From: Saccharospirillum sp.
GTDB lineage: Bacteria; Pseudomonadota; Gammaproteobacteria; Pseudomonadales; Natronospirillaceae
Length of the DNA stretch: 64,000 bases
Direction: 5' to 3'
NCBI GenBank assembly: GCA_018402545.1
Contig: JAGYIL010000004.1
Location: 124,001 to 188,000 of the forward strand
In this document: in pieces, positions 8,744 to 52,595 of the stretch
Numbering within the stretch: the first letter of the stretch is position 1
How the letters are laid out: each line of letters begins with the position of its first letter
The notes under the pieces: model-generated
Told to the model about the DNA's origin: nothing
The model's input: only the letters and a program-made list of their open reading frames with translations
Database searches by the model: none
Program-made: the position numbers and the translations under genes

Positions 8744-9967
8744 CTAGTGGCTGCCTTGGCTGAGGTATTGGTCGATATCTCTGGCACTGGTCTGAAAAAT
8801 CGCCTCCATGGCAGCCCCCACCTCGGAAAAACTAGGGTGGGATTGACGGTATTGCTGAATGAGCTGTGTATGCTGCTGAAGGCTTTTACCGGTGGTTTGC
8901 AGTGCGTTGCGAATCTCTGAGTGCGATAGACTGCATGAGCTACGGCCGAAAGCGACCAGGTAGCTTAGCGGCCACCAAACTTTGCGACCGGCCAATGTCA
9001 GGGCCGGTACGTCTTGGCTCAGGTAGGGCACGGTCGACACGATATCGTAGGTGGGTGCCAGTTGGCGTTCGCCGAAGGGCTGGTCGTATAGGATGCCGAA
9101 GTTTTTTAAGTGGGCGTCGCCATTACGAACTGCCCAGGAGACCAGGACCGACAGGAACAAGGCGTGCAATCCTCTTTTGCGATGTAAAGGCGAGAGGAAC
9201 GCGATGAGGGATTTCGACAGTTGCTCATAGCTGCCAGAGTATTTGTCTTCGGGTGCCCGGCCTTGCAGCACGCAGCCGTCTTCAAAGCCAAGCCATTGGC
9301 CGGTTCCGGTTCGGTCGAAGCGTTTCATGATGAATAGCTGACCGTCGGAGGATAAATCGAAATCGGGAACCGGCAGGCCAACCGCTTTGGCCAGGCTCAT
9401 GCAAAAATATTCGTTGGCGGCCAGTTCCGGGAAATCATCACCCCAGCTTTTTACGATGAAGCCGCCAGTTTTCAGAGTAGTTCGCTCAGCCGTCAGGGCT
9501 GGCACAATGACCTTGGGCTGAACGCCAGAAACACCGGAGCGCAGTGCGTATTTTTCGACCAACTCCTCGAACAACGCCCCGTTGTTGGAGTTTAGTAGCT
9601 CGTTGAGTGACTCGCCCTTTCCTTGTGTGGAATCGTCAGCTTTATCCGGATCGACGATTGCAACCCGACCGACTTGGAACCGGCCCAGGGCGGTAAGTAG
9701 CGTGAGGTCTCCGGGGCCATACAGTTTGGCGATGGTCTTTCGCAAGATGTCACCGAGATACCCTTCGGGCAGGTTTTGCGCAAAAACCGGATGCAGACCG
9801 TGATACAGGTAGGCATCCCTCTGCACGGGCATGGTAACTGACACCGCGTTGTCGGGCGCGGTGCCAGTGTTATAGAGAAAGACGGAAGGGTCCGGTCTCG
9901 CCGGGCTGGTCAGTTCACCCACGGGATGGTCATCGACGGTTACCTGAGCCCGGTGTTGAGTTGCCAT
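8744..9967 (-). CDS. hipA: HipA-family serine/threonine kinase toxin
   Basis: HipA-type protein kinase of 407 residues, the toxin half of a type II toxin-antitoxin pair; E. coli HipA phosphorylates glutamyl-tRNA synthetase. Features seen are an N-terminal couple_hipA-like region, a P-loop SGVSGVQPK (144-152), the ATP-binding Lys in GGFIVKSW (Lys173), MKRFDR (214-219), the catalytic NGDAHLKN (Asp284) and the Mg-binding TYD (Asp308). All key residues are present, so kinase activity is expected. It overlaps the upstream antitoxin gene by one base (TAATG), the usual hipBA coupling. The pair is inserted between recC and recB. The kinase target is unknown. Confidence 0.92.
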   Translation of the reverse strand: MATQHRAQVTVDDHPVGELTSPARPDPSVFLYNTGTAPDNAVSVTMPVQRDAYLYHGLHPVFAQNLPEGYLGDILRKTIAKLYGPGDLTLLTALGRFQVGRVAIVDPDKADDSTQGKGESLNELLNSNNGALFEELVEKYALRSGVSGVQPKVIVPALTAERTTLKTGGFIVKSWGDDFPELAANEYFCMSLAKAVGLPVPDFDLSSDGQLFIMKRFDRTGTGQWLGFEDGCVLQGRAPEDKYSGSYEQLSKSLIAFLSPLHRKRGLHALFLSVLVSWAVRNGDAHLKNFGILYDQPFGERQLAPTYDIVSTVPYLSQDVPALTLAGRKVWWPLSYLVAFGRSSCSLSHSEIRNALQTTGKSLQQHTQLIQQYRQSHPSFSEVGAAMEAIFQTSARDIDQYLSQGSH

Positions 9968-10221
9968 TACTGGCTCTCCCGATTCTGGCGTTGAAGGTCG
10001 TTAAGCGTTGGCAGGCCTTGAGCTTTCTGGGCTGTTAGTTCGAACCCCAGCACCGCTAATACCCGTTCCAGTTTGGCATATCCCATCTCCGGAAGGTGCT
10101 GGTTCTCCAGCTTCGACAGAGTGGTACGGTCGACACCGGCTACCTCAGCCAGAGACTGAATAGACAAGCCCGCCGCTTTGCGTTCTTTTCGGATAAACAA
10201 GCCAAGCTCGCTGAGCAACAT
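9967..10221 (-). CDS. hipB: HipB-like XRE-family antitoxin
   Basis: Small helix-turn-helix protein (84 residues from ATG 10221) with the XRE pattern IRKERKAAGLSIQSLAEVAGVDRTTLSKLEN, followed by a short tail. As in HipB, it should bind DNA, repress the operon and neutralise HipA. A longer frame from GTG 10275 (102 residues) exists, but it would translate the operator palindrome, so I prefer ATG 10221. The stop overlaps the hipA start. The recC stop is at 10292 on the same strand, so hipB lies immediately downstream of recC. Confidence 0.88.
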   Translation of the reverse strand: MLLSELGLFIRKERKAAGLSIQSLAEVAGVDRTTLSKLENQHLPEMGYAKLERVLAVLGFELTAQKAQGLPTLNDLQRQNRESQ

Positions 10222-10275
10222 GTGAATATACGCCACGTTTTGATCTAATAAGTAAGTATTGTAGCGTATATTCAC
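10222..10275 (-). promoter_or_regulatory. hipBA operator-promoter: perfect 12-bp inverted repeat
   Basis: GTGAATATACGC and its exact complement GCGTATATTCAC occupy 10222-10233 and 10264-10275, 12 of 12 bases paired, with 30 bp between. On the minus strand a -10-like TACAAT lies just inside the upstream arm, and the downstream arm ends one base before the hipB ATG. This is the expected geometry for an autoregulatory HipB operator bound by two dimers or by a HipBA complex. The recC stop codon is only 17 bp upstream, so read-through from recC is also possible. Confidence 0.7.
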
Positions 10276-10291
10276 GAAATAAGCGCATTTG

Positions 10292-13200
10292 CTAATCCTT
10301 TGCTACTTGCAGCGTCTCCTGCGCCCGGTGTTCAAACAGGGGCTCATAGAGCGGTGTTACCCCTTCGAACATTGCATCGTGTTCGGGTTGCTCGGGCCAG
10401 AACCAGGCTATGTAGGGGTCTTCGCTGAGGCCGTTGCTGAACCAGCCGTCGCCGTACCAGACTTTGTCGAAATCGCCCGGGTTGTACTCGCGGCGCTCGC
10501 GGGGTTTGGCCATTTCCATCGCGATGTCGGTGTGCCAGGGCAGGGGTTCGCACTGCCCGCGTCGCCAGAAGTCGAGCCAGCGGTTGAATTCGGTTCTGGC
10601 GGTGTCGGCGGTCATTGGGGCGAAGTTGATCGCGTAGACTTCGTCTTTTTTGCGTTCGCGGAAGACACCCATCGTGATCGTTTCCGATTGGGTGTTGGCC
10701 AGTAAGTGGTGGAGCCAGAGGCGCAGATGGTCTTTGCCTTTGGCATCGGCGAGGCGCCAGAACAGGAGTTCGCCGCCGGGTAGGCGCGGTAGGTTAGCGG
10801 TTACTTTTAGGGTGTCGTTGAAGACGCGTTCGGCCGGTTCGGTCACCAGTTGGGCGGCGCCGAGTGATAGTAAATGCTCACTAAAAGCGTCGGCCTGGGC
10901 TTGCCAGTCGGCCAGGGTGTCGTCTACCAGGGGGTTATCCGGTAGTCGGCCGGAGAGGCGGGCGGCCATGAGTTGGGTGTCGGCATCCGGCAGGGTTGGG
11001 TCGAAGCGGGTGGCGATCAGGTCTTGCTGTAGCTGGTAACGATCCAGGTGGTTGGCGGCGAAGGGTTCGGCGTCGGCCAGTTCGGGGGTGTCGTTCATGT
11101 CGAGAAACAGGCCCAGGCGTTGGCGGGCGAAGGCGCGGGCCGGGTGTTCGGCGAAGCGGAGCAGGTCTTCAATGCTCAGTTCTTCGGGCCAGTCGGGTTC
11201 GGCTAGCAACGGTGTGTTGTTGGGTGTTGGCAGCGGTTGGCCGAGGCGTAGCCAGCGGCTGTCGAAACTTGGCCAGGGGGTGGCGTTTTCTGACGCCGGG
11301 TCGGTGAGGTAGTTTTCCTGTGCGAAGGGCTGTAATGGTAGCGCCTGGATGCCGGTTTTGGCACGCCAGCCGGTTGCGCCTTCGAGATAGCTGAACAGTT
11401 CGGTCAGCACCAGGGAGGGCTGGCGTTCGGTGTTGGTGTTGACATCCCGGCCCTGGTAACTCAGGTAGAGGGCGTTGCGGGCCGAGAGCAGGGCTTCGAG
11501 AAAGAGGTAGCGGTCGTCGCCGCGGCGTGAACGGTCGCCCAGGCGGGGGCGGTCGTTGGCCATTAAGTCGAAGCCGAGTGGTGGCCGCTGGCGCGGGAAG
11601 TCGCCGTCGTTCAGGCCGAGTATGGCCAGTATTTTAAACGGCACCGAGCGCATTGGCACCATGGAGCACACAGTGATCTGGCCGGTCATGAACTGGCGGC
11701 CGGTGCGGGCCGGGCTGGCGAACATCTGTTGCAGGGCGTGGCGCACCACGGCCAGCGGCAGGGTGCCGGTGAAGCCAGCTTGCTGGCTGTGTTCGCTGAG
11801 GTCGCGCAGGGCATCGCGCAGGTCGTCCTGGGCGGCTTCGAAGCGGGCGTCGGTGGCGAACAGGGCCAGGCGGACTCGCTCTTGCAAAAAGCCTTGCCAG
11901 TCGCGGGCGGTGCGCGGGGTGTGCAGGTCGGCGGCGAGGTGTTTCAGGGCATCGACGAAGCCCGCGAGTTTGCCCAGCAGTTGAGCGTCGCTGCCTTCTA
12001 CGTTGGGCAGCAGCAGGCGCTGGCCCACCACGGTTTCGGTATCGCCCCAGGCGAAGCCGACGAGCAGGCGTTCCAGGCCCTGTTGCCAGCTGTAGGTGTC
12101 GTTGATGGCGTTGTCGCTGGATTGGATGTACTGGCGTTTGTGGGCGTCGTCCAACCCCCAGTGCACGCAGGCGGCGTTGAGCCAGCGGGCGAGGGGGTCG
12201 AGGTCGTCTTGCGTTAAACCGAACTGCTGCTGAATCGCCGGGACGCGCAGCCAGCCGATCACCTGCGTTACCTGGAAGCGGGCGTCGGGCAGGGTGAGCA
12301 GGTCGAGAAAGGCGGCGATGGTCGGGTCGGCGTCTTTTAAGTTGCGGTCGGCGATGGAGCAGGGCAAGGGCGGTACGTCTTCGCCGATGTCGTCGAAGCG
12401 GCGGGCGAACACGGCTTCTACAAAAGGCGCGTAATCTTCGACGTTGGGGCACATCACCAGCACGTCTTTCGGGGTGAGGGTTTTGTCGGCATTGAACTGG
12501 TGCAGCAGCCAGTCGTGCAGGCCCTGAACTTCGCGCAGGGCGCTGTGGGCACTGCGTACGCACAGGGAGTGATCGCTTACATCGCCTGCCTTTTCATTGG
12601 GCTGTTCGCGGCCATCTTTCAGTTTCAGCAGATCGCGTTGCAGTTGGTTGAGCAGGGTGTCGCCTTCGGGTTCTACGAACACCGGGGTTTCGATATCGGC
12701 GCGGTCGCTGAGCAGGTTGACGAAGGCCTGGCCCTGTTGGCCCAGGTTGCCGATTAACGGGTTGCCGACTTCGATGTTCAGGTCGTCGCTGTCGTGGCCC
12801 TGCAACACCCAGTCGGCTCGTTTTTTTTCGGCCTGTTTTTCGCTTTGGGTTTCGCCCCAGTACTCGTCGCTGGGGTTGAGGTGAAACAGGTGGATGTCCA
12901 GGCCGGCCTGGTCGGAGAGGCCTTTCAGGAAATCGAGCCAGAGCGGGGCCAGGCTGTTGATGCCGAAAATGAACAGCCGTTCGGGCAGCGGTTCGGCCGG
13001 GCTGTCGAGTTGTTGCATGGCGCGTTTCAGCAAGGCGAGCGGGTGGTTCGGGTTATCCCGCACCAGGTGACGCCAGAGTTGGGCTTGCCAGTGGTCTCCC
13101 TGGCCGGCTTCCCAGCTTTCTATCCAGTCGGGCCGGTACATTAAATATTGTTCGTACAAGTCGGCCAGTTGCTCGGCCAGTTGGAAGCGGCGCAGCGGTT

Positions 13201-13582
13201 GCTGACGGGCCGACTGGTTCTGCCAGTAGCGGCTGGGTTCGGCAAACATGGGGTCGGTGGTAATGAATCCCTGACCCAGCAGATCGTGCAGGCGCCAGAC
13301 CAGCACTTCGCGTCGGAAGGGGGACTGTTCTGGCACTTCGCTTGCACCCAGAACCTGGCGGATCAGCGTCCACATTTGCTGGATGGGCAGCGGAAAGGCC
13401 AGGTTCATGCTGATTTGGCGGCTGGGGTGATCGGCGAGTTTCATGTTCAGCCAGTGCGCCATGCCCTGATGCTGCACCAGAATGATGTCGGGTTGCAGTG
13501 GGTTGTCGACCGGCAGTGCAAGCAGGGTGGCGAGCGGGTCGATCAGAGTGTCGAGCTGGTTGCCGGGCAGAACGTGAAACAT
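10292..13582 (-). CDS. recC: RecBCD exonuclease subunit RecC
   Basis: RecC recognises Chi and splits the DNA strands in the RecBCD complex. From ATG 13582 the protein has 1096 residues (usual about 1120) and begins MFHVLPGNQLDTLIDPLA. Family landmarks are VQHQGMAHWLNMKLAD, NLAFPLPIQQMW, RLFIFGINSLAPLWLDFL, VLVMCPNVEDYAPFVEAVF, PMRSVPFKILAILGLNDGDFPRQ and DRSRRGDDRYLFLEALLSAR. The frame stays open to 13831, but that extension translates repeat R1 and is rejected. The gene runs minus-strand toward hipBA, and recB begins 3.4 kb further on, so the normally contiguous recC-recB-recD order is interrupted. Confidence 0.95.
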   Translation of the reverse strand: MFHVLPGNQLDTLIDPLATLLALPVDNPLQPDIILVQHQGMAHWLNMKLADHPSRQISMNLAFPLPIQQMWTLIRQVLGASEVPEQSPFRREVLVWRLHDLLGQGFITTDPMFAEPSRYWQNQSARQQPLRRFQLAEQLADLYEQYLMYRPDWIESWEAGQGDHWQAQLWRHLVRDNPNHPLALLKRAMQQLDSPAEPLPERLFIFGINSLAPLWLDFLKGLSDQAGLDIHLFHLNPSDEYWGETQSEKQAEKKRADWVLQGHDSDDLNIEVGNPLIGNLGQQGQAFVNLLSDRADIETPVFVEPEGDTLLNQLQRDLLKLKDGREQPNEKAGDVSDHSLCVRSAHSALREVQGLHDWLLHQFNADKTLTPKDVLVMCPNVEDYAPFVEAVFARRFDDIGEDVPPLPCSIADRNLKDADPTIAAFLDLLTLPDARFQVTQVIGWLRVPAIQQQFGLTQDDLDPLARWLNAACVHWGLDDAHKRQYIQSSDNAINDTYSWQQGLERLLVGFAWGDTETVVGQRLLLPNVEGSDAQLLGKLAGFVDALKHLAADLHTPRTARDWQGFLQERVRLALFATDARFEAAQDDLRDALRDLSEHSQQAGFTGTLPLAVVRHALQQMFASPARTGRQFMTGQITVCSMVPMRSVPFKILAILGLNDGDFPRQRPPLGFDLMANDRPRLGDRSRRGDDRYLFLEALLSARNALYLSYQGRDVNTNTERQPSLVLTELFSYLEGATGWRAKTGIQALPLQPFAQENYLTDPASENATPWPSFDSRWLRLGQPLPTPNNTPLLAEPDWPEELSIEDLLRFAEHPARAFARQRLGLFLDMNDTPELADAEPFAANHLDRYQLQQDLIATRFDPTLPDADTQLMAARLSGRLPDNPLVDDTLADWQAQADAFSEHLLSLGAAQLVTEPAERVFNDTLKVTANLPRLPGGELLFWRLADAKGKDHLRLWLHHLLANTQSETITMGVFRERKKDEVYAINFAPMTADTARTEFNRWLDFWRRGQCEPLPWHTDIAMEMAKPRERREYNPGDFDKVWYGDGWFSNGLSEDPYIAWFWPEQPEHDAMFEGVTPLYEPLFEHRAQETLQVAKD

Positions 13583-13943
13583 GAAGCAGACTCGTGGGGT
13601 TTTGGACAGTGTAGCAAGGTGGCCGGGTTTGTAGGAGTTGAAGGATGAATCCGATGTTAGTTGTGCTCCCCAAGGCCCTTCGACAGGCTCAGGGCGAACG
13701 GGAGTTGGAGTAAGTTGCCTCAGCGCTTCATTCCGTTCGGGGTGAGCTTGTCGAACCCCCTTGGGGAATTGATTAAACCCTTGATTTAAGCCCTGGTAAA
13801 TCCACTGGAAGCCGGTAACTGAACAGGGCATTCTGTTGTGCTTTCAATAAATTGTACTGTCTAACAATAAGGTGTTCGGTTGGGTTGGCCTGAATTCGGG
13901 CCGGTGACGTACCTATCCCATCCGATTTTTAAGGAGTAGTGGC
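13583..13943. other. Divergent intergenic region recC/RND adaptor with repeat R1
   Basis: About 360 bp separating the divergently transcribed recC and the RND adaptor gene. It contains repeat R1 (13667-13767), 85 bp upstream of the recC start. The adaptor gene has AAGGAG at 13931, twelve bases before its ATG. No regulator gene or clear operator is visible for the pump. Confidence 0.4.
13667..13767. repeat. Inverted repeat element R1 (TTCGACA family)
   Basis: Roughly 35-bp arms with about 30 bp between: TCCCCAAGG-CC-CTTCGACAGGCTCA-GGG-CGAACGG on one side and its near complement CCGTTCGGGGTGAGCTTGTCGAA-CCCCCTTGGGGA on the other. The two arms differ at a few paired positions (CC/GG and GGG/CCC runs), which are inverted and not complementary. 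R2 and R3 elsewhere in the window have the same design. Similar TTCGACAAGCTCAGG sequences are scattered in many proteobacterial genomes. This copy lies upstream of recC. Confidence 0.75.
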
Positions 13944-15056
13944 ATGTCTCTCTGGAAACAAAGTGCGCTGGCGCTGGCGTTAATTGCATTGGCCGGTGGC
14001 GGTTGGTTGGTCTGGCATCCGGCTGGAGAAGGCACGCGCGTGCAGCTGGGTCTGGCTGAGGCGTCTGAATCCAGTGGTGGCGGGCGGCCTGGCTTTGGGT
14101 TTGGCGGTGGTGGCGGGACGCTGGTGGTGACGGACCAGGTGGGTGAAGGTGTCATTAATGACCGGCTGACCGCTATTGGCGATGGCGCTGCGTTGCGGTC
14201 GGTGTCGATTAACCCTGAAGTCAGCGGGCGCATTACCGAGGTGTTGCGTGGCTCGGGTGATCGGGTGGAAGCCGGGGATGTGATTGCCCGTATGGACGCA
14301 AGCTCTGAACGAATTGCGCTCGACCGGGCCCGGTTGGCGGTGCGCGATGCTGAAAACCGGGTGGAGCGGTTAACGCGGATGCAACAGGGTAATTCCATTA
14401 CTCAGGTTGAGCGGGTGGAAGCCGAGTCTGCATTGGAGTCGGCCCGGCTGGCTGTGCGTGAGGCTGAGCTGGCATTGTCACGCCGTACCATAACGGCACC
14501 ATTCGGTGGGGTGCTGGGAATCATGTCGCTGGAGCCGGGCAGTCTGGTTGGCTCGCAGGATGAAGTGGCGCGGCTGGATGACCGGTCGGATCTACTGGTC
14601 GAGTTCCGGGTGCCGGAGCGGTTTGTGGGGGCCATTGCTGTTGGGCGTGCCATTGATGTAACGCCGGTGTCGAACCCGGCGTTGGAAGTGACTGGTGAAA
14701 TTACGGCGATCGACAGCCGGCTGGAAGCCGATTCCCGCACGCTTCGGGTGCAGGCCCGGGTCGATAACGAAGCCGACCGGTTGCGTCCGGGCATGTCGTT
14801 TATTCTGGATCTGCAGTTCGCTGGTGACACCTTCCCAACGGTGAACCCGTTGGCGGTTCAGTGGCGGTCGGAAGGCGCTTACGTCTGGCGCGTTAATAGC
14901 GAGGGCGAAGCTGAGCAGGTGCCGGTGCGCATTATTCAGCGCAATTCGGATGCGGTGCTGGTCGATGCGCCGTTGCAGCCAGGTGACGAGGTAGTGACCG
15001 AAGGCGTGCAATCGGTTCGTGCCGGTGCGGCCGTGCGCCAGGCGGGGGGTAGCTGA
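13944..15056 (+). CDS. RND efflux periplasmic adaptor subunit (membrane fusion protein)
   Basis: Inner-membrane-anchored periplasmic adaptor, 370 residues. A hydrophobic N-terminal segment (about residues 7-24) is followed by a Gly-rich linker. The biotinyl-lipoyl-like half motifs are VSGRITEVLRGSGDRVEAGDVIARMD and ITAPFGGVLGIMSLEPGSLVGSQ. A coiled-coil hairpin (ALDRARLAVRDAENRVERLTRMQ and ESALESARLAVREAELALSRR) lies between them, and a beta-barrel domain with RPGMSFILDLQF follows. The start has an AAGGAG box. The pump gene begins two bases after the stop, so the two form an operon. No outer-membrane TolC gene is adjacent, so the pump probably shares a genomic TolC. The substrate is unknown. 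Confidence 0.92.
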   Translation: MSLWKQSALALALIALAGGGWLVWHPAGEGTRVQLGLAEASESSGGGRPGFGFGGGGGTLVVTDQVGEGVINDRLTAIGDGAALRSVSINPEVSGRITEVLRGSGDRVEAGDVIARMDASSERIALDRARLAVRDAENRVERLTRMQQGNSITQVERVEAESALESARLAVREAELALSRRTITAPFGGVLGIMSLEPGSLVGSQDEVARLDDRSDLLVEFRVPERFVGAIAVGRAIDVTPVSNPALEVTGEITAIDSRLEADSRTLRVQARVDNEADRLRPGMSFILDLQFAGDTFPTVNPLAVQWRSEGAYVWRVNSEGEAEQVPVRIIQRNSDAVLVDAPLQPGDEVVTEGVQSVRAGAAVRQAGGS

Positions 15057-44571: not shown

Positions 44572-45501
44572 ATGAATGCCATTCCTACGCTCGATTTACG
44601 CCGTTTTAAAACCGATCCCGAAGGCTTTGTTCAGGAAATGGGCGCGGCCTATCAGGCCTGGGGCTTTGCCGGCATTACTGGCCATGGCATCGATTCCTCG
44701 GTAGCCATTAACGCCCTGCGTGCGGCCGAAAAAGTCTTCGCGCTGCCCGATGAAACCAAGAAAGCCTATTTCAAAAACAACGGTGGCACCCGGGGCTATA
44801 CCCCTTTTGGTACCGAGATTGCCAAGAACGCTGAACACGTCGACCTGAAAGAGTTCTGGCATGTGGGCCGCGAGATCGAAGGCGAAGCCCCACACAAAGA
44901 CCTGACCCCGAATGTCTGGCCGGAAGAAGTGCCGGAATTCAAAGACGCCATGCTGCGGCTTTACTACGAGCTGGATGCGCTGTCGCAGGAACTGCTGCAG
45001 GCTTTTGCCCTGTTTATCGGCGAAGACCGGCACTATTTCGACGAAAAGGTGAACTACGGCAACAGCATTCTCCGGCCGCTGCACTATCCGCCGATCACTG
45101 ATCCGAATCTGCCCAATGTGCGCGCAGGTGCGCACGAAGACATCAACCTGATCACACTGCTGGTCGGCTCCGAGCAGGAAGGTCTTGAAGTGAAAAACAT
45201 GCGCGGCGAGTGGGTCGGCATTTCGATGATTGAAGGCACCATCATCTGCAACGTGGGCGACATGCTGCAGCGCCTGACCAACCACGTGCTGCCTTCAACC
45301 ACGCACCGTGTGGTTAATCCCAAAGGCGAGGCCGGGAAGGTATCGCGGTTCTCCATTCCGTTCTTTGTCCACCCGAACCCGGGTACTTCGCTGGATGCAC
45401 TGCCACAGTGCGTCACCGAGGACAACCCGAAACGCTACCCGGCCATCACCAGCGATGAGTACCTGATGGAGCGGTTGCGCGAGATTGGGCTTGTCAAGTA
45501 A
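44572..45501 (+). CDS. 2-oxoglutarate/Fe(II)-type oxygenase, isopenicillin N synthase-like
   Basis: Non-haem iron oxygenase of 309 residues. The N-terminal DIOX_N-like part (IPTLDLRRF, AWGFAGITGHGID) leads to the jelly-roll core. The iron triad is His188 and Asp190 in AGAHEDINLITLL and His245 in PSTTHRVVNP. The co-substrate pair Arg259-x-Ser261 lies in KVSRFSIPFF, all intact. It follows the purine/nucleoside transporter genes on the same strand, so the oxygenase may act on an imported base or nucleoside, as other dioxygenases do in purine or thymine catabolism. This link is inference. Isopenicillin N synthase itself is not implied. Confidence 0.88.
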   Translation: MNAIPTLDLRRFKTDPEGFVQEMGAAYQAWGFAGITGHGIDSSVAINALRAAEKVFALPDETKKAYFKNNGGTRGYTPFGTEIAKNAEHVDLKEFWHVGREIEGEAPHKDLTPNVWPEEVPEFKDAMLRLYYELDALSQELLQAFALFIGEDRHYFDEKVNYGNSILRPLHYPPITDPNLPNVRAGAHEDINLITLLVGSEQEGLEVKNMRGEWVGISMIEGTIICNVGDMLQRLTNHVLPSTTHRVVNPKGEAGKVSRFSIPFFVHPNPGTSLDALPQCVTEDNPKRYPAITSDEYLMERLREIGLVK

Positions 45502-45626: not shown

Positions 45627-47057
45627 ATGATAGAGGTCATCATCATCGGTGATGTTACAGGGCCCAGTATACTTTTCATAGGCAACGACACGGGCGGGCT
45701 TGCGCTTACGTCTGCTCTCACTAACAGTGTTCACAGATACCCTTCGTTTAGTGCCTTTAAGAATTCTGGTTTAGCTTCCCCTGATGGGATTGTGCTGGCG
45801 CTTGCGGATGAGACAGAGGCTGTCGATATAGCCATGGCCATCCGTCAAGACGAGGCGTTGTGGTTGCTTCCGGTTTACAGTTGCGTTTCTGTAGACACCC
45901 AGTCACTTTTGTATCCACTCATCGATGGGGTTGTGTCCACGCTGGACGCCGCGATCCAGTCTGCGGCCGCAATTAATGAGCGGACTGGTCAATTGTCTAT
46001 TGATCCAACTTTGGATATTGATAATCGAGTATTGGCCTTTCTGGCGTCCCGACCCGAAGGGGTTCTCAGGCCGATACCTTTCTGGCAATCCCCTAGGTTG
46101 TATCGTTACCCACTGTTGGAAGCGCTGGGCGGGCGGGATATTGACTGCTGGGCCTGGCTTGGTCGGCTTCAGAACCGGGGTTGGTTGACGCGTGTCAAGT
46201 TGATAGACCGGGTCCGTGATTGTAAACAGTGTGGGGCTGCACATCAGGTGTTCGTCGATACTTGCCCAAACTGCCACGACCTCGATATTCAGCAGGTTCC
46301 GTTCATTCACTGCTTTACATGTGGAAACGTTGCGCCGCAGCGCGATTTCATGGCAACCGGGCGATTAACCTGCGCGCGTTGCCAGACGAAGTTGAGACAC
46401 ATTGGCAGTGATTACGACCGGCCGCTTGAAGATCATGAATGCCAAGTCTGCCATTTCGCCTTCAGTGAGCCGGAAGTTATCGCGCGGTGTGCACACTGTG
46501 ATCATCGGCAAACTCCGTCTGATCTGGTAGTAAGAGACGTGCTGTCTATGACAGTTTCTGATCAGGGCCGTCTGGTGGCAGAATATGGTCGAAGCCAAGA
46601 CCTGTTAGATGTATTTGATCAGGTCAATTTTGCTCGCCCCTCTGTTTTCAGGTTTTCCCTGGACTGGATGTTGGCACTGGAGCATCGTCACGCCGCGCTG
46701 GAGTTTAGCGTTGTCTTGCTGCGTATCCGCGATATCCAAAAACTGATCGACTCCATCGGCCCGGCACGGGTATCCATGCTATTGCATGGTTTTGCAGACC
46801 GACTACGTGATCTCATCCGAACGACCGATGTCTGCACCCGGACATCTGAAAACCAGTTTTGGTTGCTGCTCCCGTTCACTGATGGCAAAGCCGGTTCGGG
46901 TTTGCTCGAGCGGCTCAAGACGTTCCAGCAACAAACTCAGCAAAGTAGCGGTGTTTCGCTCGAACTGGATATAGAGTTCTTTGCCAGCGACCTTGTTGAA
47001 GACCCACCCCATGAAGCCGAGGTGCTGATGGCAGAGATGACAGGACGGCTTGAGTGA
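45627..47057 (+). CDS. Zinc-ribbon (TackOD1-like) protein with degenerate GGDEF domain
   Basis: A 476-residue cytosolic protein in three parts. Residues 1-115 look like a receiver-like or Rossmann fold without a clear phosphoacceptor. Residues about 130-295 carry six CxxC pairs (Cys199/202, 213/216, 229/232, 249/252, 272/275, 288/291) plus HIGSDYDRP, resembling the TackOD1 output domain described first from archaea. Residues about 340-470 look like a diguanylate cyclase fold, but the GGDEF signature is replaced by SENQF (407-411), so no cyclase activity is expected. The start codon has a weak ribosome-binding site. Its end overlaps the glycosyltransferase gene (GTGA), so it is part of that operon, perhaps as a regulator that senses c-di-GMP or zinc. 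Confidence 0.75.
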   Translation: MIEVIIIGDVTGPSILFIGNDTGGLALTSALTNSVHRYPSFSAFKNSGLASPDGIVLALADETEAVDIAMAIRQDEALWLLPVYSCVSVDTQSLLYPLIDGVVSTLDAAIQSAAAINERTGQLSIDPTLDIDNRVLAFLASRPEGVLRPIPFWQSPRLYRYPLLEALGGRDIDCWAWLGRLQNRGWLTRVKLIDRVRDCKQCGAAHQVFVDTCPNCHDLDIQQVPFIHCFTCGNVAPQRDFMATGRLTCARCQTKLRHIGSDYDRPLEDHECQVCHFAFSEPEVIARCAHCDHRQTPSDLVVRDVLSMTVSDQGRLVAEYGRSQDLLDVFDQVNFARPSVFRFSLDWMLALEHRHAALEFSVVLLRIRDIQKLIDSIGPARVSMLLHGFADRLRDLIRTTDVCTRTSENQFWLLLPFTDGKAGSGLLERLKTFQQQTQQSSGVSLELDIEFFASDLVEDPPHEAEVLMAEMTGRLE

Positions 47058-48385
47058 TTTCGCTCGTTTCCGATGTCATCGAAACACTGGCAGAGATATT
47101 GTTCATGGCAGATTCCGGTATGGAATTCGCCATGAGGTTTGTTCCCTTTATTCTGTTTATTGAAGTCCCATTTTACAGCCTGGTACTGCTGGGGCTGGCT
47201 AAATACATCACTCGCCAGCATTTTAGTACTCCCCGGCAAGTCAACTTTCGACCGACGGTAAGCTGCATTGTGCTCTGTTACTCTGAGGGTGAAGGTATAT
47301 TGGCGAGTATACGTTCACTGGTTGAGCAGCAATACTCAGGTCATGTTCAGATTATAGTGGTGATTGACGGTGCTGTTCAGAATGACACCACCTATCAGGT
47401 GGCCTTGTCGGCCCAAAAGCGGTTCAAACACTGGCCGCAACGAGACATTATACTCGTGCCAAAATGGCAGCGCGGAGGTAGGGTATCGTCCATTAATGCA
47501 GGTTTTAACAAGTGTCGGGGCCTGGTAACCATGGTCCTGGACGGCGATACATCTTTTGATAACGACATGATCGCCAATAGCGTTCCGCATTTTTCCAACG
47601 AAAACATTGTTGCCGTTTCAGGCTCTCTTAGGGTCCGCAACGTGGACGCCAGCTGGGTAACCCGGCTGCAGGCGATTGAGTACCTGATATCCATACATAC
47701 CAGCAAAGTGGGCCTGAGTGAGTTTAACGTTGTAAACAACATATCGGGCGCGTTTGGGATCTTTCGTACTGAGTTTATTAGGGCTGTCGGTGGATGGGAT
47801 GCAGGAACGGCGGAAGATCTTGATTTAACAATGCGCATCAAGCAGTACTTTGGCCGCCATAAAAATTTACGGATTATCTTCGAACCCAAGGCTATCGGGC
47901 ATACCGATGTTCCCGAGACCATGCGTGATTTCCTTCTGCAGCGGCTGAGATGGGATGGGGATCTGTATTGGTTGTACTTTCGTAAACATTCGTCCGGATT
48001 TGTACCTCGACTTCTGGGGTGGGCGAATTTTATTGGCATTCTCTGGTACGGCGTTCTGTTTCAAATAGTCATGCCATTTATGATCCTGATATATCTTGTC
48101 TATTCATTCTTTGTCTATCAATTGCCTCAGGTAGTGGCCATTTTACTGCTTGTTTATGGATTCTATTTGCTCGTTACCACGGTATTTTACACAGTGGGCG
48201 TGGCTGGCATTTCTGAGCGACCACGAGCCGACCTTAAGCAGACCTGGCTGGTTCCTATCTTTCCTGCGTTCATGCTGGTTATTCGGCTTTGGGCAACCGT
48301 TGCGGTGCTATCAGAGCTTTTTTTGCACAATAGCCGGTATTCAACGATGGCTCCTTTTTGGGTGCTCAAGCGGAATAAATACTAA
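47054..48385 (+). CDS. Membrane glycosyltransferase family 2 (polysaccharide synthase)
   Basis: Processive GT2 synthase of 443 residues, like PgaC/hyaluronan/cellulose synthases. An N-terminal TM (about 28-50) is followed by the catalytic domain with VVIDG (Asp105), VLDGDTSFD (Asp163 and Asp165), GTAEDLDLTMR (catalytic base Asp255) and QRLRW (296-300). C-terminal TMs cover about 320-435. All canonical motifs are present, so polymerisation and membrane passage of a polysaccharide are expected. The start is GTG, overlapping the upstream stop. The next gene starts within 10 bp. The sugar is unknown; UDP-GlcNAc or UDP-glucose are typical. Confidence 0.9.
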   Translation: MISLVSDVIETLAEILFMADSGMEFAMRFVPFILFIEVPFYSLVLLGLAKYITRQHFSTPRQVNFRPTVSCIVLCYSEGEGILASIRSLVEQQYSGHVQIIVVIDGAVQNDTTYQVALSAQKRFKHWPQRDIILVPKWQRGGRVSSINAGFNKCRGLVTMVLDGDTSFDNDMIANSVPHFSNENIVAVSGSLRVRNVDASWVTRLQAIEYLISIHTSKVGLSEFNVVNNISGAFGIFRTEFIRAVGGWDAGTAEDLDLTMRIKQYFGRHKNLRIIFEPKAIGHTDVPETMRDFLLQRLRWDGDLYWLYFRKHSSGFVPRLLGWANFIGILWYGVLFQIVMPFMILIYLVYSFFVYQLPQVVAILLLVYGFYLLVTTVFYTVGVAGISERPRADLKQTWLVPIFPAFMLVIRLWATVAVLSELFLHNSRYSTMAPFWVLKRNKY

Positions 48386-48388
48386 GGG

Positions 48389-50554
48389 TTGGATGTGAGA
48401 CGGATTTACAAAAGCAAATGCATGCTGGTTCGCACTGGTGTTTTTCTGCTTGGCTGCGTCGTTATGCTAAGTAGCCAGGCCGAGCCAGTTACACTGGAAC
48501 AGTTGGAAGGTGAGTTACTGCGTGCACCTTCTGTGCGAGCAGCTCAGGCTGAACTGGACTACAGGACCAGTCTGCTGTCCAGGGATTTGGCTGGCGCAGG
48601 TTGGTCCGTTATCAGCGGTGTTTCATTGTCTCACCAGATCGATCGCGTTATTGACAGTGAGTGGAACAACAGCCAACCCGCACGTGCTTACATTGGGCTA
48701 TCGGTTCCCTTACTGGGATCGAGAGCTGAAGAACGGCGAGCCTTGACTGAATCGGCGCAAGACGTGGCGATACAGTCGTCTCAGGTTGACCTACAGACCG
48801 GTGCAAGTCTGCGATCGCTGCGCGATTACTATGTGATTTATTGGACAAGTCAGCAGCAATTGGCCGCACTGGACCGACTCCAGGCGTCTTTTACCCGCTA
48901 TGACCAACAGTTGCAGGCCCGATTGGATGCCCAATTGTTGCTGGCCTCAGAGTACTATGAATTCCGCGCCGTGATGGCTCGAATCGACCGTGAGCGTGCC
49001 GCATTTGAGCTCAGCAGCCAACGCGCTCTGGCACAGATGAATTGGCTGACCACTGGAACATTAACGGAGTTTGATGCTCGGGCACCGGATTATCCTGCCG
49101 TGTGCGTGGATGTGCAGGCCGTGCAAGCGTATTGGCTCGCTGAGGCACCCCGGCTCAAACAGGCCGAAGAGGAGCTCATTTACCAGGCAAACAGGGTCGC
49201 AGATAGTCGTTGGTCAGGTGTCGACAGCCAGTTCTCTCTGGTTCAGAGTTTTGAACATCGGTTTCAGAATCGGCAAGACGACACTGAGCAATCGGAGCTC
49301 CGGGCCAGCTTCGATATTACGTTCCCGTTAAACTGGAATCAGTATCGACGCGACGCTGCCCGCAGTCGCATCGATGCCTGGGTGGCGGGACGTACAGCGC
49401 TTGAGGCGGAGCAGGTAAGTCAGTTGGAACGAGTGTTTAACGGCTACGAGAATCTTTCCCAGCAGCGTTATCGTTACCGAACCTCATTGAAGCAACTCCT
49501 GGCTCAAAATGAGCTGTTGCGTGAAGTACAACTGCGTTTTGATGCTTCTCAATCGATAGAACTGGTGGATTTCATTAATGCACATGTGGGTTATTACCAG
49601 GCCGTTATAGGCTGGTTGGACGCGCGTTCAGGTCTGGCACTGGCAGTAAATCAGTGGCGCCCAATGGCTGAGTTTCGTTGTCAGGATCAATGGCAATTCA
49701 ACCCGACTACGAGTTTGGGTGACCTGACGGTGGCCGAGCTGAGGGTGGGACGGGCTCCCCAACTGGTGGGGATTGATCCAGGTGGGTATCAGTCGCGGGG
49801 GCTCCTGGTCTGGAAAGCGACGGACTGGCTCGCCAGACTGGAAGCGGATCCAACGCTGTTCACGCAGTTGCGTCGAGACTCGGGTGTGACGTCAGTGTCT
49901 ATCTCATTCACGTCAGAGGAACTGGGAACTTTTTCAGGCCAGCCCTTCAAGCTGATGCCTTTATTTCTTGAAGCAGAAAAAGCAGGAGTGACGGTGAATT
50001 TGCTGTTGGGTGAGCCCCTCTGGATACTGCCAGAGGGGCGGCAGGATCTACTTGATATCCTGGGTCAACTCAAAGGTCTTCCGTTCGAACGGCTCTATCT
50101 TGATTTGGAGCTCAATCAACTGGCTCCTGAAGGGCAGCTGGAGGGTGAAGGGCATTGGCGCGAATTGGTGGAGACGCTCACCGTCGTCGTTAAAGAATCC
50201 GATTGGCCCGTGGCTTGGATTACGCATGATCGTTATCTCTCAGGGACTGACGATGAGTGCCGGTTGTGTACCATTGAAACCACGGGAGTGGAGGAAGTCG
50301 CCTTGATGATATTCTCCACCGCCCCTGAGACAGTGATTCGTAGAGCACAATCATTGCTGAACGCACCGTCAGTGATGACGTTCAGTCTCGTAGTCAGCGT
50401 AGAATCTGAGCTACCGGCCGAGAACAGTTTTTACAGTAGCGGCATGGTAGCGTTAGAGCTTGGACTGGCTCGTATAGCCGGCGGACTGACGTCACCTCGA
50501 TTTGTCGGTTTTCATCTTCAGAGCTGGGACAGTTTCAGGATGATGGCACCGTGA
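48389..50554 (+). CDS. TolC-family outer-membrane protein fused to a C-terminal TIM-barrel-like domain
   Basis: A 721-residue protein. A signal peptide ends near SSQA-EP. Residues about 35-445 are TolC-like: long alpha-helical segments (SLRSLRDYYVIYWTSQQQLAALDRL, and the repeat around QVSQLERVFNGYENLSQQRYRYRTSLKQLL) with beta segments between. Residues about 470-721 are unlike TolC and look like a beta/alpha barrel (VSISFTS, VTVNLLLGEPLWIL, ERLYLDLELNQL, WPVAWITHDRYL). The start is uncertain: TTG 48389, GTG 48395 (GGG spacing is best) or ATG 48422. The end overlaps the adaptor gene (GTGA). I know no named family with this fusion; a glycosidase-like role at the exit pore is a guess. Confidence 0.75.
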   Translation: MDVRRIYKSKCMLVRTGVFLLGCVVMLSSQAEPVTLEQLEGELLRAPSVRAAQAELDYRTSLLSRDLAGAGWSVISGVSLSHQIDRVIDSEWNNSQPARAYIGLSVPLLGSRAEERRALTESAQDVAIQSSQVDLQTGASLRSLRDYYVIYWTSQQQLAALDRLQASFTRYDQQLQARLDAQLLLASEYYEFRAVMARIDRERAAFELSSQRALAQMNWLTTGTLTEFDARAPDYPAVCVDVQAVQAYWLAEAPRLKQAEEELIYQANRVADSRWSGVDSQFSLVQSFEHRFQNRQDDTEQSELRASFDITFPLNWNQYRRDAARSRIDAWVAGRTALEAEQVSQLERVFNGYENLSQQRYRYRTSLKQLLAQNELLREVQLRFDASQSIELVDFINAHVGYYQAVIGWLDARSGLALAVNQWRPMAEFRCQDQWQFNPTTSLGDLTVAELRVGRAPQLVGIDPGGYQSRGLLVWKATDWLARLEADPTLFTQLRRDSGVTSVSISFTSEELGTFSGQPFKLMPLFLEAEKAGVTVNLLLGEPLWILPEGRQDLLDILGQLKGLPFERLYLDLELNQLAPEGQLEGEGHWRELVETLTVVVKESDWPVAWITHDRYLSGTDDECRLCTIETTGVEEVALMIFSTAPETVIRRAQSLLNAPSVMTFSLVVSVESELPAENSFYSSGMVALELGLARIAGGLTSPRFVGFHLQSWDSFRMMAP

Positions 50555-51642
50555 AAATAAAGTTTCATTCTGAAAAGCAACGTGACCCGGGCAGTGAAAA
50601 CGGAATTAAGGTTCCCTACGGTCCGGGGCGCAAGAAACTGCCCAGAGTCCGGTGGTGGCTGATTTTGCTGGCCGTTTTTAGTCCATTGATTTACTTCGTC
50701 TGGACCTTGGTAAGAGACGTTGCGCTGATCGAAGTGCCTGGCAATATTGCGTTTCCCTCTCAAACGTATCGCGCCAGTACCGGGGGCGTAGTGGAGGTGC
50801 TGTTTGTGGAGGCCAGTGATCGTGTGATGGCTGACCAGCCTCTTGTGCAACTTTCAGATCAAAATCTAAACCGTGAAATTCGTCAGCTTTTGGTTGAGCA
50901 AAACAGTTTGAATACCTGGATTGATCAGCGTTTTGTTCAGGATAGGACAAGTACTGTAACCGACTATCAATATGAGCAAGCCATCCGGTCATTTAATAAT
51001 CAGAAATCGTATTTGGACACGATTACTCGATTGCTTGAGATTGGAGCCGCGACAAGAACCGAGTTGCTGGCGGCTGAGCGAGCTTTGCTCGAAGCAGAAC
51101 AACGAGTAGCCGTGCTTCAGGAAAGGCAGCAAGCGGATGTGCGACAGTCGCTCGTTGAAGCAAGGCAGGACGCAGAACAGGCGTTTGGAAATTCACAGCG
51201 CCTTGCGTTGCTGAGCGAACGGCTAAGGGGCCTTTATGACCAGCGATCAGAGTTGCTTGTTGAAAGTCAAAGTGCCGGTCAGATATTGAATGTCAGTGTG
51301 GTCGAAGGGGAGGTTGTGGGGCCTGGAACCTTGCTCCTTGAAATTGGAAACCGTGACCAGATTGAGGTTCGAGTCTATATTCCCACTGAACACATTGCTT
51401 ACGCCAATCTTGGTCAGGAAGGTACTGTCTCGCTCGCGAACGATGCATCCTTCCGGGCACGTATCGTTCGTTTGCCGCAAACTGCGGCAAGGGTTCCAAG
51501 TGAATTCAGTGGACCGTTTGGCGAGCGACCCAGTGGCATCATGGCTACGATGGAACCGTTGGAACCTATTGCTGAGCAATGGGCCGTCAATGGCTTGCCC
51601 GTCAGTGTGAGGCTTGATCGTCATTGGTCGGTCATGAGGTAG
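50551..51642 (+). CDS. HlyD-type periplasmic adaptor of the polysaccharide operon
   Basis: A 363-residue adaptor with one N-terminal membrane anchor (about 34-52, WWLILLAVFSPLIYFVWTLV), a lipoyl-like half motif around GGVVEVLFVEASDRVMADQPLVQL, a long coiled coil (LNREIRQLLVEQNSL through QDAEQAFGNSQRLALLSERLRGL), the second half (AGQILNVSVVEGEVVGPGTLLLEIG) and a beta domain (RVYIPTEHIAYANLGQEGTVSL). It should bridge the GT2 synthase in the inner membrane and the TolC fusion protein. The start is GTG at 50551, coupled to the previous stop. No RND or ABC pump gene is present, so the synthase may itself export the chain. Confidence 0.87.
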   Translation: MKIKFHSEKQRDPGSENGIKVPYGPGRKKLPRVRWWLILLAVFSPLIYFVWTLVRDVALIEVPGNIAFPSQTYRASTGGVVEVLFVEASDRVMADQPLVQLSDQNLNREIRQLLVEQNSLNTWIDQRFVQDRTSTVTDYQYEQAIRSFNNQKSYLDTITRLLEIGAATRTELLAAERALLEAEQRVAVLQERQQADVRQSLVEARQDAEQAFGNSQRLALLSERLRGLYDQRSELLVESQSAGQILNVSVVEGEVVGPGTLLLEIGNRDQIEVRVYIPTEHIAYANLGQEGTVSLANDASFRARIVRLPQTAARVPSEFSGPFGERPSGIMATMEPLEPIAEQWAVNGLPVSVRLDRHWSVMR

Positions 51643-51704: not shown

Positions 51705-52595
51705 ATGCCATCCATCAAGCACATAGCCATCACTGGCGGTACTCACGGTAATGAACTTACCGGGGTGCATTTGCTCAAACACTGGCGCAATAATCCCGAA
51801 GAAATCTGCCGGGACGGGCTGGTGACCGAGTTGCATCTGGCCAACCCCAAGGCCAATGGCTGCAACCGGCGCTACCTGGATCAGGATCTTAACCGGCAGT
51901 TCAGCTGGGCAGACCTCTCCGACCACAGCCTCTGTGGCTACGAGCAGAACCGGGCCAAATCACTGAACACTTTGCTGGGCCCAAAAGACGCTCCCCGCGT
52001 CGATTTCATCATCGATCTGCACACTACCACTGCCAACATGGGCACTACTCTGGTGATCAAATCAGACGATGCGCTGGTGGTGGGCATGGCGTTCTACATC
52101 AAACAGCAGATGCCTGAGGTCACGCTGTTTTATGAACCGGAAGATCGCCTGAGCGATAACTTCCTGATCTCCCTGGGCAAACATCATGGTTTGCTGGTGG
52201 AAGTGGGCCCAGTGCCACAGGGCATGCTGCGCTGGGATGTGTTTGACAAAACGCGCCAGGCTACCCGCTTTGGGCTGGACTATCTGGCGGCGGTGCGAGC
52301 GGGCAATCAGCCGGAATTGCCCGCGTCTCTGCCGGGGTTCCAATTCGTCGAAAAGCTGAAACTGCCGGAAAACGAACGTGGTGAACTGACGGCGATGATT
52401 CATCCCGATCGGCAAGACACCGACTACCAGCCCATTCAACCGGGCGACCCGCTGTTCATTACGCTGGAGGGTGAAGCCCTGAACTATGAAGGCACCGAAA
52501 CCTTGTACGGGGCCTTCATCAATGAAGCGGCTTACTATGATCAGCACATCGGGCTTAGCCTGATGCGTAAGATTGAAATCCAATTGCCGGGTTAA
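51705..52595 (+). CDS. Aspartoacylase/succinylglutamate desuccinylase family protein
   Basis: Zinc carboxypeptidase-fold amidohydrolase of 296 residues from ATG 51705, with GTGGAGTTT upstream. The longer frame overlaps the adaptor gene. The zinc motif is GGTHGNELTG (His and Glu), the third ligand is in FIIDLHTTTANMG, and the catalytic Glu is in LLVEVGPVPQG. It resembles aspartoacylase (ACY2), which deacetylates N-acetylaspartate or N-acetyl aromatic amino acids. The substrate could be one of several N-acyl amino acids, including ectoine-pathway intermediates. It ends tail to tail with the next gene, with the stop codons overlapping. Confidence 0.88.
   Translation: MPSIKHIAITGGTHGNELTGVHLLKHWRNNPEEICRDGLVTELHLANPKANGCNRRYLDQDLNRQFSWADLSDHSLCGYEQNRAKSLNTLLGPKDAPRVDFIIDLHTTTANMGTTLVIKSDDALVVGMAFYIKQQMPEVTLFYEPEDRLSDNFLISLGKHHGLLVEVGPVPQGMLRWDVFDKTRQATRFGLDYLAAVRAGNQPELPASLPGFQFVEKLKLPENERGELTAMIHPDRQDTDYQPIQPGDPLFITLEGEALNYEGTETLYGAFINEAAYYDQHIGLSLMRKIEIQLPG

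Follow-up and report, generated by a model that had tools for sequence, protein, structure and literature searches.

A putative c-di-GMP-gated exopolysaccharide operon of the Mxd type in Saccharospirillum sp. with a TolC-like channel fused to a glycosidase-like barrel

We have analyzed a four-gene operon of Saccharospirillum sp. in a 64,000-nucleotide stretch of contig JAGYIL010000004.1 (hereafter the window, to which all coordinates refer unless a locus is named). The four genes, in the order A-B-D-C, encode a protein with a TackOD1 domain and a degenerate GGDEF domain (A), a membrane glycosyltransferase of family 2 (GT2; B), a TolC-like channel with an additional C-terminal barrel (D), and an HlyD-type adaptor (C). 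We consider that these proteins probably form a horizontally acquired, synthase-dependent exopolysaccharide (EPS) machine of the Mxd type, gated by cyclic di-GMP (c-di-GMP). Within this reading, the identity of the polymer, its export, the control by c-di-GMP, and the location and catalysis of the barrel are what we infer. More tentatively, the operon may be a mobile four-gene cassette with an I-site c-di-GMP switch, in which the exit duct and a polymer-cutting glycosidase are one polypeptide, with three barrels per TolC-like trimer, and which makes an undescribed matrix polymer.

Operon organization

The operon consists of four intact open reading frames on the forward strand between 45627 and 51642. 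Read from the sequence, the stop codon of A and the start codon of B overlap in the four bases GTGA (47054-47057), the stop codon of B ends at 48385 and is separated by a 3-base gap from the start of D at 48389, and the stop codon of D and the start codon of C again overlap in GTGA (50551-50554). From the end of C, 62 bases lead to the next gene start (51705). D has two candidate start codons, TTG at 48389 and ATG at 48422, the latter directly upstream of a signal-peptide-like stretch, and the GTG start of C aligns, by eye, with the initiator methionine in many relatives. These coordinates and junctions agree with the original prediction, made from the sequence of the window, of a translationally coupled four-gene operon; the gene content that it had claimed is borne out by the open reading frames and the domain matches.

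Protein D, a TolC-like channel with a C-terminal barrel

The match of D to the Pfam family OEP reached 14.0 bits, under the cut-off of 22; of four TolC-barrel relatives that were scanned, three passed this cut-off (up to 58 bits). The AlphaFold2 model of D, based on a 24-row alignment, had a mean predicted local distance difference test score (pLDDT) of 86 and a predicted template modelling score (pTM) of 0.59. Its channel part matched the crystal structure of TolC (1ek9) with a VIA Z score of 24.4 over 391 aligned residues (3.9 Å). The C-terminal part showed eight barrel strands in order, and VIA matched it best to Cwp19 of Clostridium difficile (5oq2; 244 residues aligned at 3.8 Å, Z 19.0). 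Lower Z scores were obtained for 6k7z, a GH18 chitinase (17.1), and for several GH1 beta-glucosidases (about 17). In the available part of its published description, Cwp19 is reported to belong to family GHL10 and to hydrolyze peptidoglycan, and PgaB is listed among the structures most closely related to it (PMC5765458). The TolC-like protein with an extra domain that had been predicted is recovered as a modelled TolC fold, and the extra domain, to which the prediction had given no identity, models as a glycosidase-like barrel.

Conservation in the barrel is consistent with an active site. Trp475, Trp545, Asp572, Glu574, and Met640 are invariant in all 23 rows of the barrel alignment (A4), which include five stand-alone barrels, and the D-x-E motif formed by Asp572 and Glu574 is kept in 25 of 25 D-homologue rows with letters there, as expected of an active site. 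(The 24-row D alignment, A2, was built without L043, L049, and L056, which have broken frames, L054, a near copy of L055, and L110; A4 omits the same loci and the divergent L072.) The barrel profile also finds, with E 1.1e-17, PDB entry 10yv_A ('Putative GH97 from Cellulomonas fimi', a function given by title only), which shares the LD-x-E, and, weakly, a GH18 chitinase (E 0.019).

These invariant residues stand against the alternative that the barrel is catalytically dead and serves the same EPS machine as a sugar-binding domain or structural collar, which we regard as rather unlikely. Several observations speak for that alternative and weigh against a catalytic barrel. Glu672, at the end of strand 7, where a second acid is expected in many such enzymes, is found in 16 of the 23 rows and is missing from all seven rows of the alignment that belong to the D-C-A-B arrangement described below. 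Pfam gave no informative glycoside hydrolase (GH) match for the barrel, and its weak matches were scattered, each in one to three of the 23 members; one of these was GH76, which a single member matched at E 0.27. L072 carries Ser and Thr at the D-x-E columns in the 24-row alignment and was unaligned there in a wider recount. Foldseek ranked a beta-eliminase (8bvk, E 2.8e-4) and a phosphorylmutase before Cwp19 (E 4.4e-4), with lyases close after. Because lyase and mutase barrels thus have E-values close to that of Cwp19, the modelled fold by itself would not prove a glycosidase.

Both ends of a TolC chain sit in the periplasm, and the barrel of D is therefore expected there. In our preferred reading of an active barrel, it is probably an enzyme that trims the polymer in the periplasm. 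No report of a TolC-glycosidase fusion was found in a limited literature search. The barrel domain also exists alone, as five proteins in four genomes of the same order. These stand-alone barrels have no TolC part and no adjoining A-B-C genes, their N-termini look secreted by eye, and four of the five, scanned whole, gave no Pfam match above cut-off. A further D homologue, at L039:10935-13439, has an additional N-terminal AMIN domain.

Protein A, a predicted c-di-GMP receptor

A matched the Pfam domain TackOD1 (PF18551) with 198.4 bits (E 1e-58; gathering cut-off 32) and GGDEF with 33.6 bits (E 4e-8; cut-off 23.8). The GGDEF fold is supported by the model of A, which had a mean pLDDT of 87.6 and matched solved GGDEF domains with VIA Z scores of about 16 over 141-142 residues; most structural matches span approximately residues 327-476. 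The N-terminal part may be receiver-like, judging from the predicted secondary structure and from structural matches that reach there at high root mean square deviation.

The RxxD motif of the I-site lies directly upstream of the GGDEF-motif position and is kept in 25 of the 26 rows of the A alignment (A3), which leaves out eight of the 34 A-bearing loci (L043, L049, L052, L053, L054, L072, L109, and L110). When these eight loci and four plasmid loci were added, it was present in 34 of the 37 rows with letters there. The GGDEF letters themselves drift, reading SENQF in A and other letters in its relatives. Because RxxD is kept while the GGDEF letters drift, which is the logic of PelD, we infer with good sequence support that A is a c-di-GMP receptor that binds through its I-site and whose own cyclase site is dead. 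The predicted regulatory role of a degenerate GGDEF protein gains in likelihood from this pattern.

The rest of A raises the question of whether it is instead a zinc-dependent scaffold or transcription regulator in which RxxD is a relic. Within A, conservation in the alignment is higher in TackOD1, where 11 Cys and one His (His228) are unchanged in 26 of 26 aligned relatives. The accessible part of the description of this domain (PMC5847659) presents it as an archaeal output domain of obscure function that has 11 conserved Cys and also occurs in some bacteria. Furthermore, RxxD is missing in L059, in the plasmid locus L129, and in the broken L053, and this counts against c-di-GMP binding, as do two statements in the available portions of the literature on Shewanella, that MxdA controls c-di-GMP levels indirectly (PMC3691769) and that MxdB is the enzyme contacted by c-di-GMP (review, PMC8683041). 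On the other side, RxxD persists in nearly all rows despite the drifting GGDEF letters, and excerpts of two other papers describe MxdA as an effector or binding protein of c-di-GMP (PMC7666153, PMC11395469). We consider a scaffold or regulator that is no c-di-GMP receptor to be improbable.

Synthase B and adaptor C

B matched Pfam GT2 families above cut-off and carries the motifs DG (105), DGD (163), TAED (252), and QRLRW (296), which supports the earlier claim of an EPS-type GT2 with intact catalytic motifs. Its best NCBIfam model was PgaC/IcaA (TIGR03937; 118.2 bits), far under the equivalog cut-off of 422.3, and the NodC model (88 bits) and other GT2 models were all under cut-off. Judged by sequence, B is too distant from named synthases for its product to be assigned, and none of the four genes is a nucleotide-sugar gene; both points weigh against the EPS reading.

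C matched Pfam HlyD_3 and HlyD_D23 above cut-off and has a single predicted transmembrane (TM) region near residues 36-54. By eye, C (window 50551-50720) and many of its homologues, mainly those of the ABDC and ABC sets, have a cytosolic juxtamembrane motif of approximately Y-A-P-x-K-R-x(3)-K/R-x-R-W-Y. As a guess, this motif could be a docking site for A or B. No PilZ domain was detected in B or C by Pfam at E values up to 1. Considering the TolC fold of D together with the HlyD matches of C, a TolC-HlyD type conduit replacing a PgaA/BcsC porin, as originally proposed, holds at the level of genes and folds, and a polymer may be exported through it.

TolC-HlyD conduits are known chiefly for transporting proteins and small molecules. 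This, together with the NodC match and the other sub-cut-off GT2 matches, would suit a B whose product, like that of NodC, is a short oligosaccharide or glycolipid that C and D export in the manner of small-molecule efflux, with no matrix polymer. We find this explanation very doubtful, considering that the best NCBIfam match of B is a polymer synthase. In addition, in the parts of the published accounts available, mxdA and mxdB deletions are aggregation-deficient (PMC3691769) and Shewanella mxd mutants are also deficient in three-dimensional biofilm.

Distribution and gene arrangements

In a class sample of 369 genomes, TackOD1 was found in 27 at E<=0.001, in 19 of them above cut-off. Among 17 strong TackOD1 loci (E below 1e-50, that of the window included, and with broken frames in those of G284 and G065), B and C stood beside A in 16 and D in 10; G258 has A alone. 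The gene set is conserved beyond this genome and also on plasmids, the opposite of the lack of conservation that the original prediction had named as a refutation. The marine setting given for such neighborhoods is too narrow: judged by name, the organisms that carry the family are not all marine, and Comamonadaceae, Zoogloeaceae, Aeromonas, and Plesiomonas are among them. The D profile matched 92 of 390 genomes of the same order, spanning both domains in eight and the TolC part only in most others.

The 36 loci, all retrieved through A, B, or D and hence not a random sample, showed the arrangements ABDC (14), DCAB (9), and ABC (8), with five incomplete. In trees of A and B (30 rows each, without L049, L038, L052, L053, L102, and L112), DCAB fell on one branch (100/100), and the three arrangements need three changes, compared with 13.5 (A) and 13.8 (B) with shuffled labels. 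The eight ABC loci have no D alongside, and D had no match anywhere in seven ABC genomes searched whole. The barrel is therefore not essential to the A-B-C core, which weighs against a trimming barrel as a required part of the machine.

Two orphans were seen within the stretches examined, an A without B, C, and D (L038) and a D without A, B, and C (L112). Some relatives carry sugar genes next to the operon, which may hint at the polymer. Adjoining C are a GH16 gene (L041:13795-14706), galE (L129:9451-10461), and an epimerase-family gene (L059:12591-14063), and a further locus has a nucleotide-sugar dehydrogenase gene (L070:7562-8809).

Acquisition and mobility

TackOD1 had no match in five genomes of the same genus, and 16 genomes of the same family gave one weak match under cut-off. 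The 2-oxoglutarate-Fe(II) oxygenase gene that flanks the operon is in all six genomes of the genus, that of the window included. In G001, whose oxygenase is 98% identical, the oxygenase and aspartoacylase genes are adjacent with approximately 330 bases between them, corresponding to an empty site; in the other four same-genus genomes, the gap or the orientation of this pair varies. The guanine-plus-cytosine (GC) content of the operon is 51.8%, against 57.1% nearby, and none of 176 segments of equal length from the rest of the window was as low, in a count that excludes the first 2 kb (41% GC). The operon in this genome looks like an acquired insertion gained horizontally. Positions 1-2000 themselves, at 41% GC against about 58% elsewhere, may be another acquired stretch.

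A was found in 13 of 72,556 plasmid records (E 1e-10), with B (E 1e-30) within approximately 1 kb in 12; in the remaining record, from Roseibium, B was not matched at E 1e-30. With the 16 of 17 strong loci of the class sample, this pairing of A and B exceeds chance. Two plasmid records, both of Aeromonas caviae, contain D. One of these, pKAM329_3 (NZ_AP024139.1, L126), is a 29-kb mobilizable MOBP plasmid with the full A-B-D-C set at 8941-14763, annotated just as diguanylate cyclase, glycosyltransferase, TolC, and HlyD. A-B-C sets are on plasmids from Plesiomonas, from Photobacterium, and from a Rhodobacteraceae; in the last, galE follows. Because the cassette is absent from the same-genus genomes, one of which has the empty site, and is complete on the A. 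caviae plasmid, we conclude that it is mobile.

Table 1. Features of the operon and its flanks (window positions; locus positions where a locus is named)
Feature	Position	Strand	Description
Gene A	45627..47057	+	476 aa; receiver-like N-terminal region (secondary structure), TackOD1, degenerate GGDEF; predicted cytosolic c-di-GMP receptor
TackOD1 domain	46017..46550	+	aa 131-308; PF18551 E 1e-58; 11 Cys and His228 invariant
RxxD I-site motif	46818..46829	+	R398, D401; 25/26 rows of A3; 34/37 rows over all loci
Degenerate GGDEF motif SENQF	46845..46859	+	aa 407-411; cyclase site lost
Gene B	47054..48385	+	443 aa; membrane GT2 synthase; GTG start
Gene D	48389..50554	+	721 aa; outer-membrane channel and C-terminal barrel; TTG start, ATG 48422 alternative
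TolC-fold channel part of D	48485..49723	+	~aa 33-445; VIA vs 1ek9
(beta/alpha)8 barrel of D, glycosidase-like	49784..50551	+	aa 466-721; eight strands in model; VIA Cwp19 Z 19.0
D572-x-E574, putative catalytic pair	50102..50110	+	End of barrel strand 4; 23/23 rows of A4; 25/25 D rows
Gene C	50551..51642	+	363 aa; HlyD-type adaptor; GTG start; one TM near aa 36-54; cytosolic juxtamembrane motif
2-Oxoglutarate-Fe(II) oxygenase, left flank	44572..45501	+	In 5/5 other same-genus genomes; outside the system
Aspartoacylase, right flank	51705..52595	+	Adjoins oxygenase in operon-free G001; outside the system
Stand-alone barrels	L103:8433-9425; L104:8816-10225; L105:8689-10089; L106:8635-9981; L107:8047-9393

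Discussion

The operon and its relatives indicate a possible full machine that combines a c-di-GMP receptor, a GT2, an HlyD adaptor, and a TolC duct with a glycosidase-like domain. In the mechanism that we propose, A would bind c-di-GMP at the RxxD I-site and then switch on B, which would polymerize a nucleotide sugar in the inner membrane and extrude the chain. C would span the periplasm as a bridge, and D, as a TolC-like trimeric duct, would let the polymer pass the outer membrane. The barrel of D would lie in the periplasm at the waist of the duct, where it probably cuts or trims the polymer, the task of the separate enzymes PgaB, PelA, AlgL, and BcsZ in other systems. Since the substrate of the barrel is probably the product of the machine or close to it, the purified barrel would offer a handle on the polymer. 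The copy on a mobilizable Aeromonas plasmid suggests that a biofilm capacity of this type can pass between species.

Compared with the outer-membrane factors TolC and OprM, D has the same fold in residues of approximately 33-445 and differs by the fused C-terminal barrel of 256 residues. The alginate proteins Alg8 and Alg44 resemble B and C in that they combine a GT2 with an inner-membrane protein that has an HlyD-type part. They differ in that the c-di-GMP sensor of Alg44 is a PilZ domain, according to the available part of the source (PMC8461298), whereas B and C are without a PilZ match. The Pga system of poly-N-acetylglucosamine is similar in that B is nearest to PgaC/IcaA, a glycosidase-like barrel is attached to the export route, and the best VIA match of this barrel, Cwp19, is reported to be structurally related to PgaB. 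However, B is far under the PgaC cut-off, and a PgaA porin, a PgaB deacetylase domain, and PgaD are all missing from the four-gene set. In the same partly available source (PMC8461298), PelD has a degenerate GGDEF domain with RxxD and acts as a c-di-GMP receptor for an EPS synthase. A shows the same pattern but has TackOD1 where PelD has TM helices and GAF, and Pel uses the GT4 enzyme PelF (PMC8461298), whereas B is a GT2.

The likeness to mxdABCD of Shewanella, a putative EPS cluster and the closest known system, is one of architecture and published descriptions. The Shewanella marker NF051473 was above cut-off in 0 of the 369 class genomes, and a search of genome contigs with one protein as query gave six close relatives, none of them Shewanella. 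In one family guessed from the marker search, TackOD1 was found in 3 of 59 genomes. A gene of 217-223 aa after C was considered as MxdD and dropped: of three examined by eye, two were alike but lay one gene farther from C, and the remaining one looked different. The original prediction had named no characterized product for such neighborhoods; a described system does exist, and the available portions of the Mxd descriptions name no product for it. In such portions, MxdA has a degenerate GGDEF domain (PMC3409153), MxdB is a GT2, MxdC is efflux-pump-like, and MxdD is a conserved hypothetical protein (PMC3691769).

On the one hand, the operon is like mxdABCD of Shewanella oneidensis MR-1 in its first gene with a degenerate GGDEF (SENQF here), its membrane GT2 in second place, and its efflux-pump-like gene, and the order A-B-C, with the HlyD gene third, is shared with mxdABCD by eight loci and three plasmids. 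In S. oneidensis, mxdA is SO4180, and the three other mxd genes adjoin it. On the other hand, the HlyD gene of this operon is fourth and is preceded by the TolC-barrel fusion, whereas MxdD is a conserved hypothetical protein. Based on the model of D, the new element relative to the known Mxd system appears to be an exit duct fused to a glycosidase-like domain.

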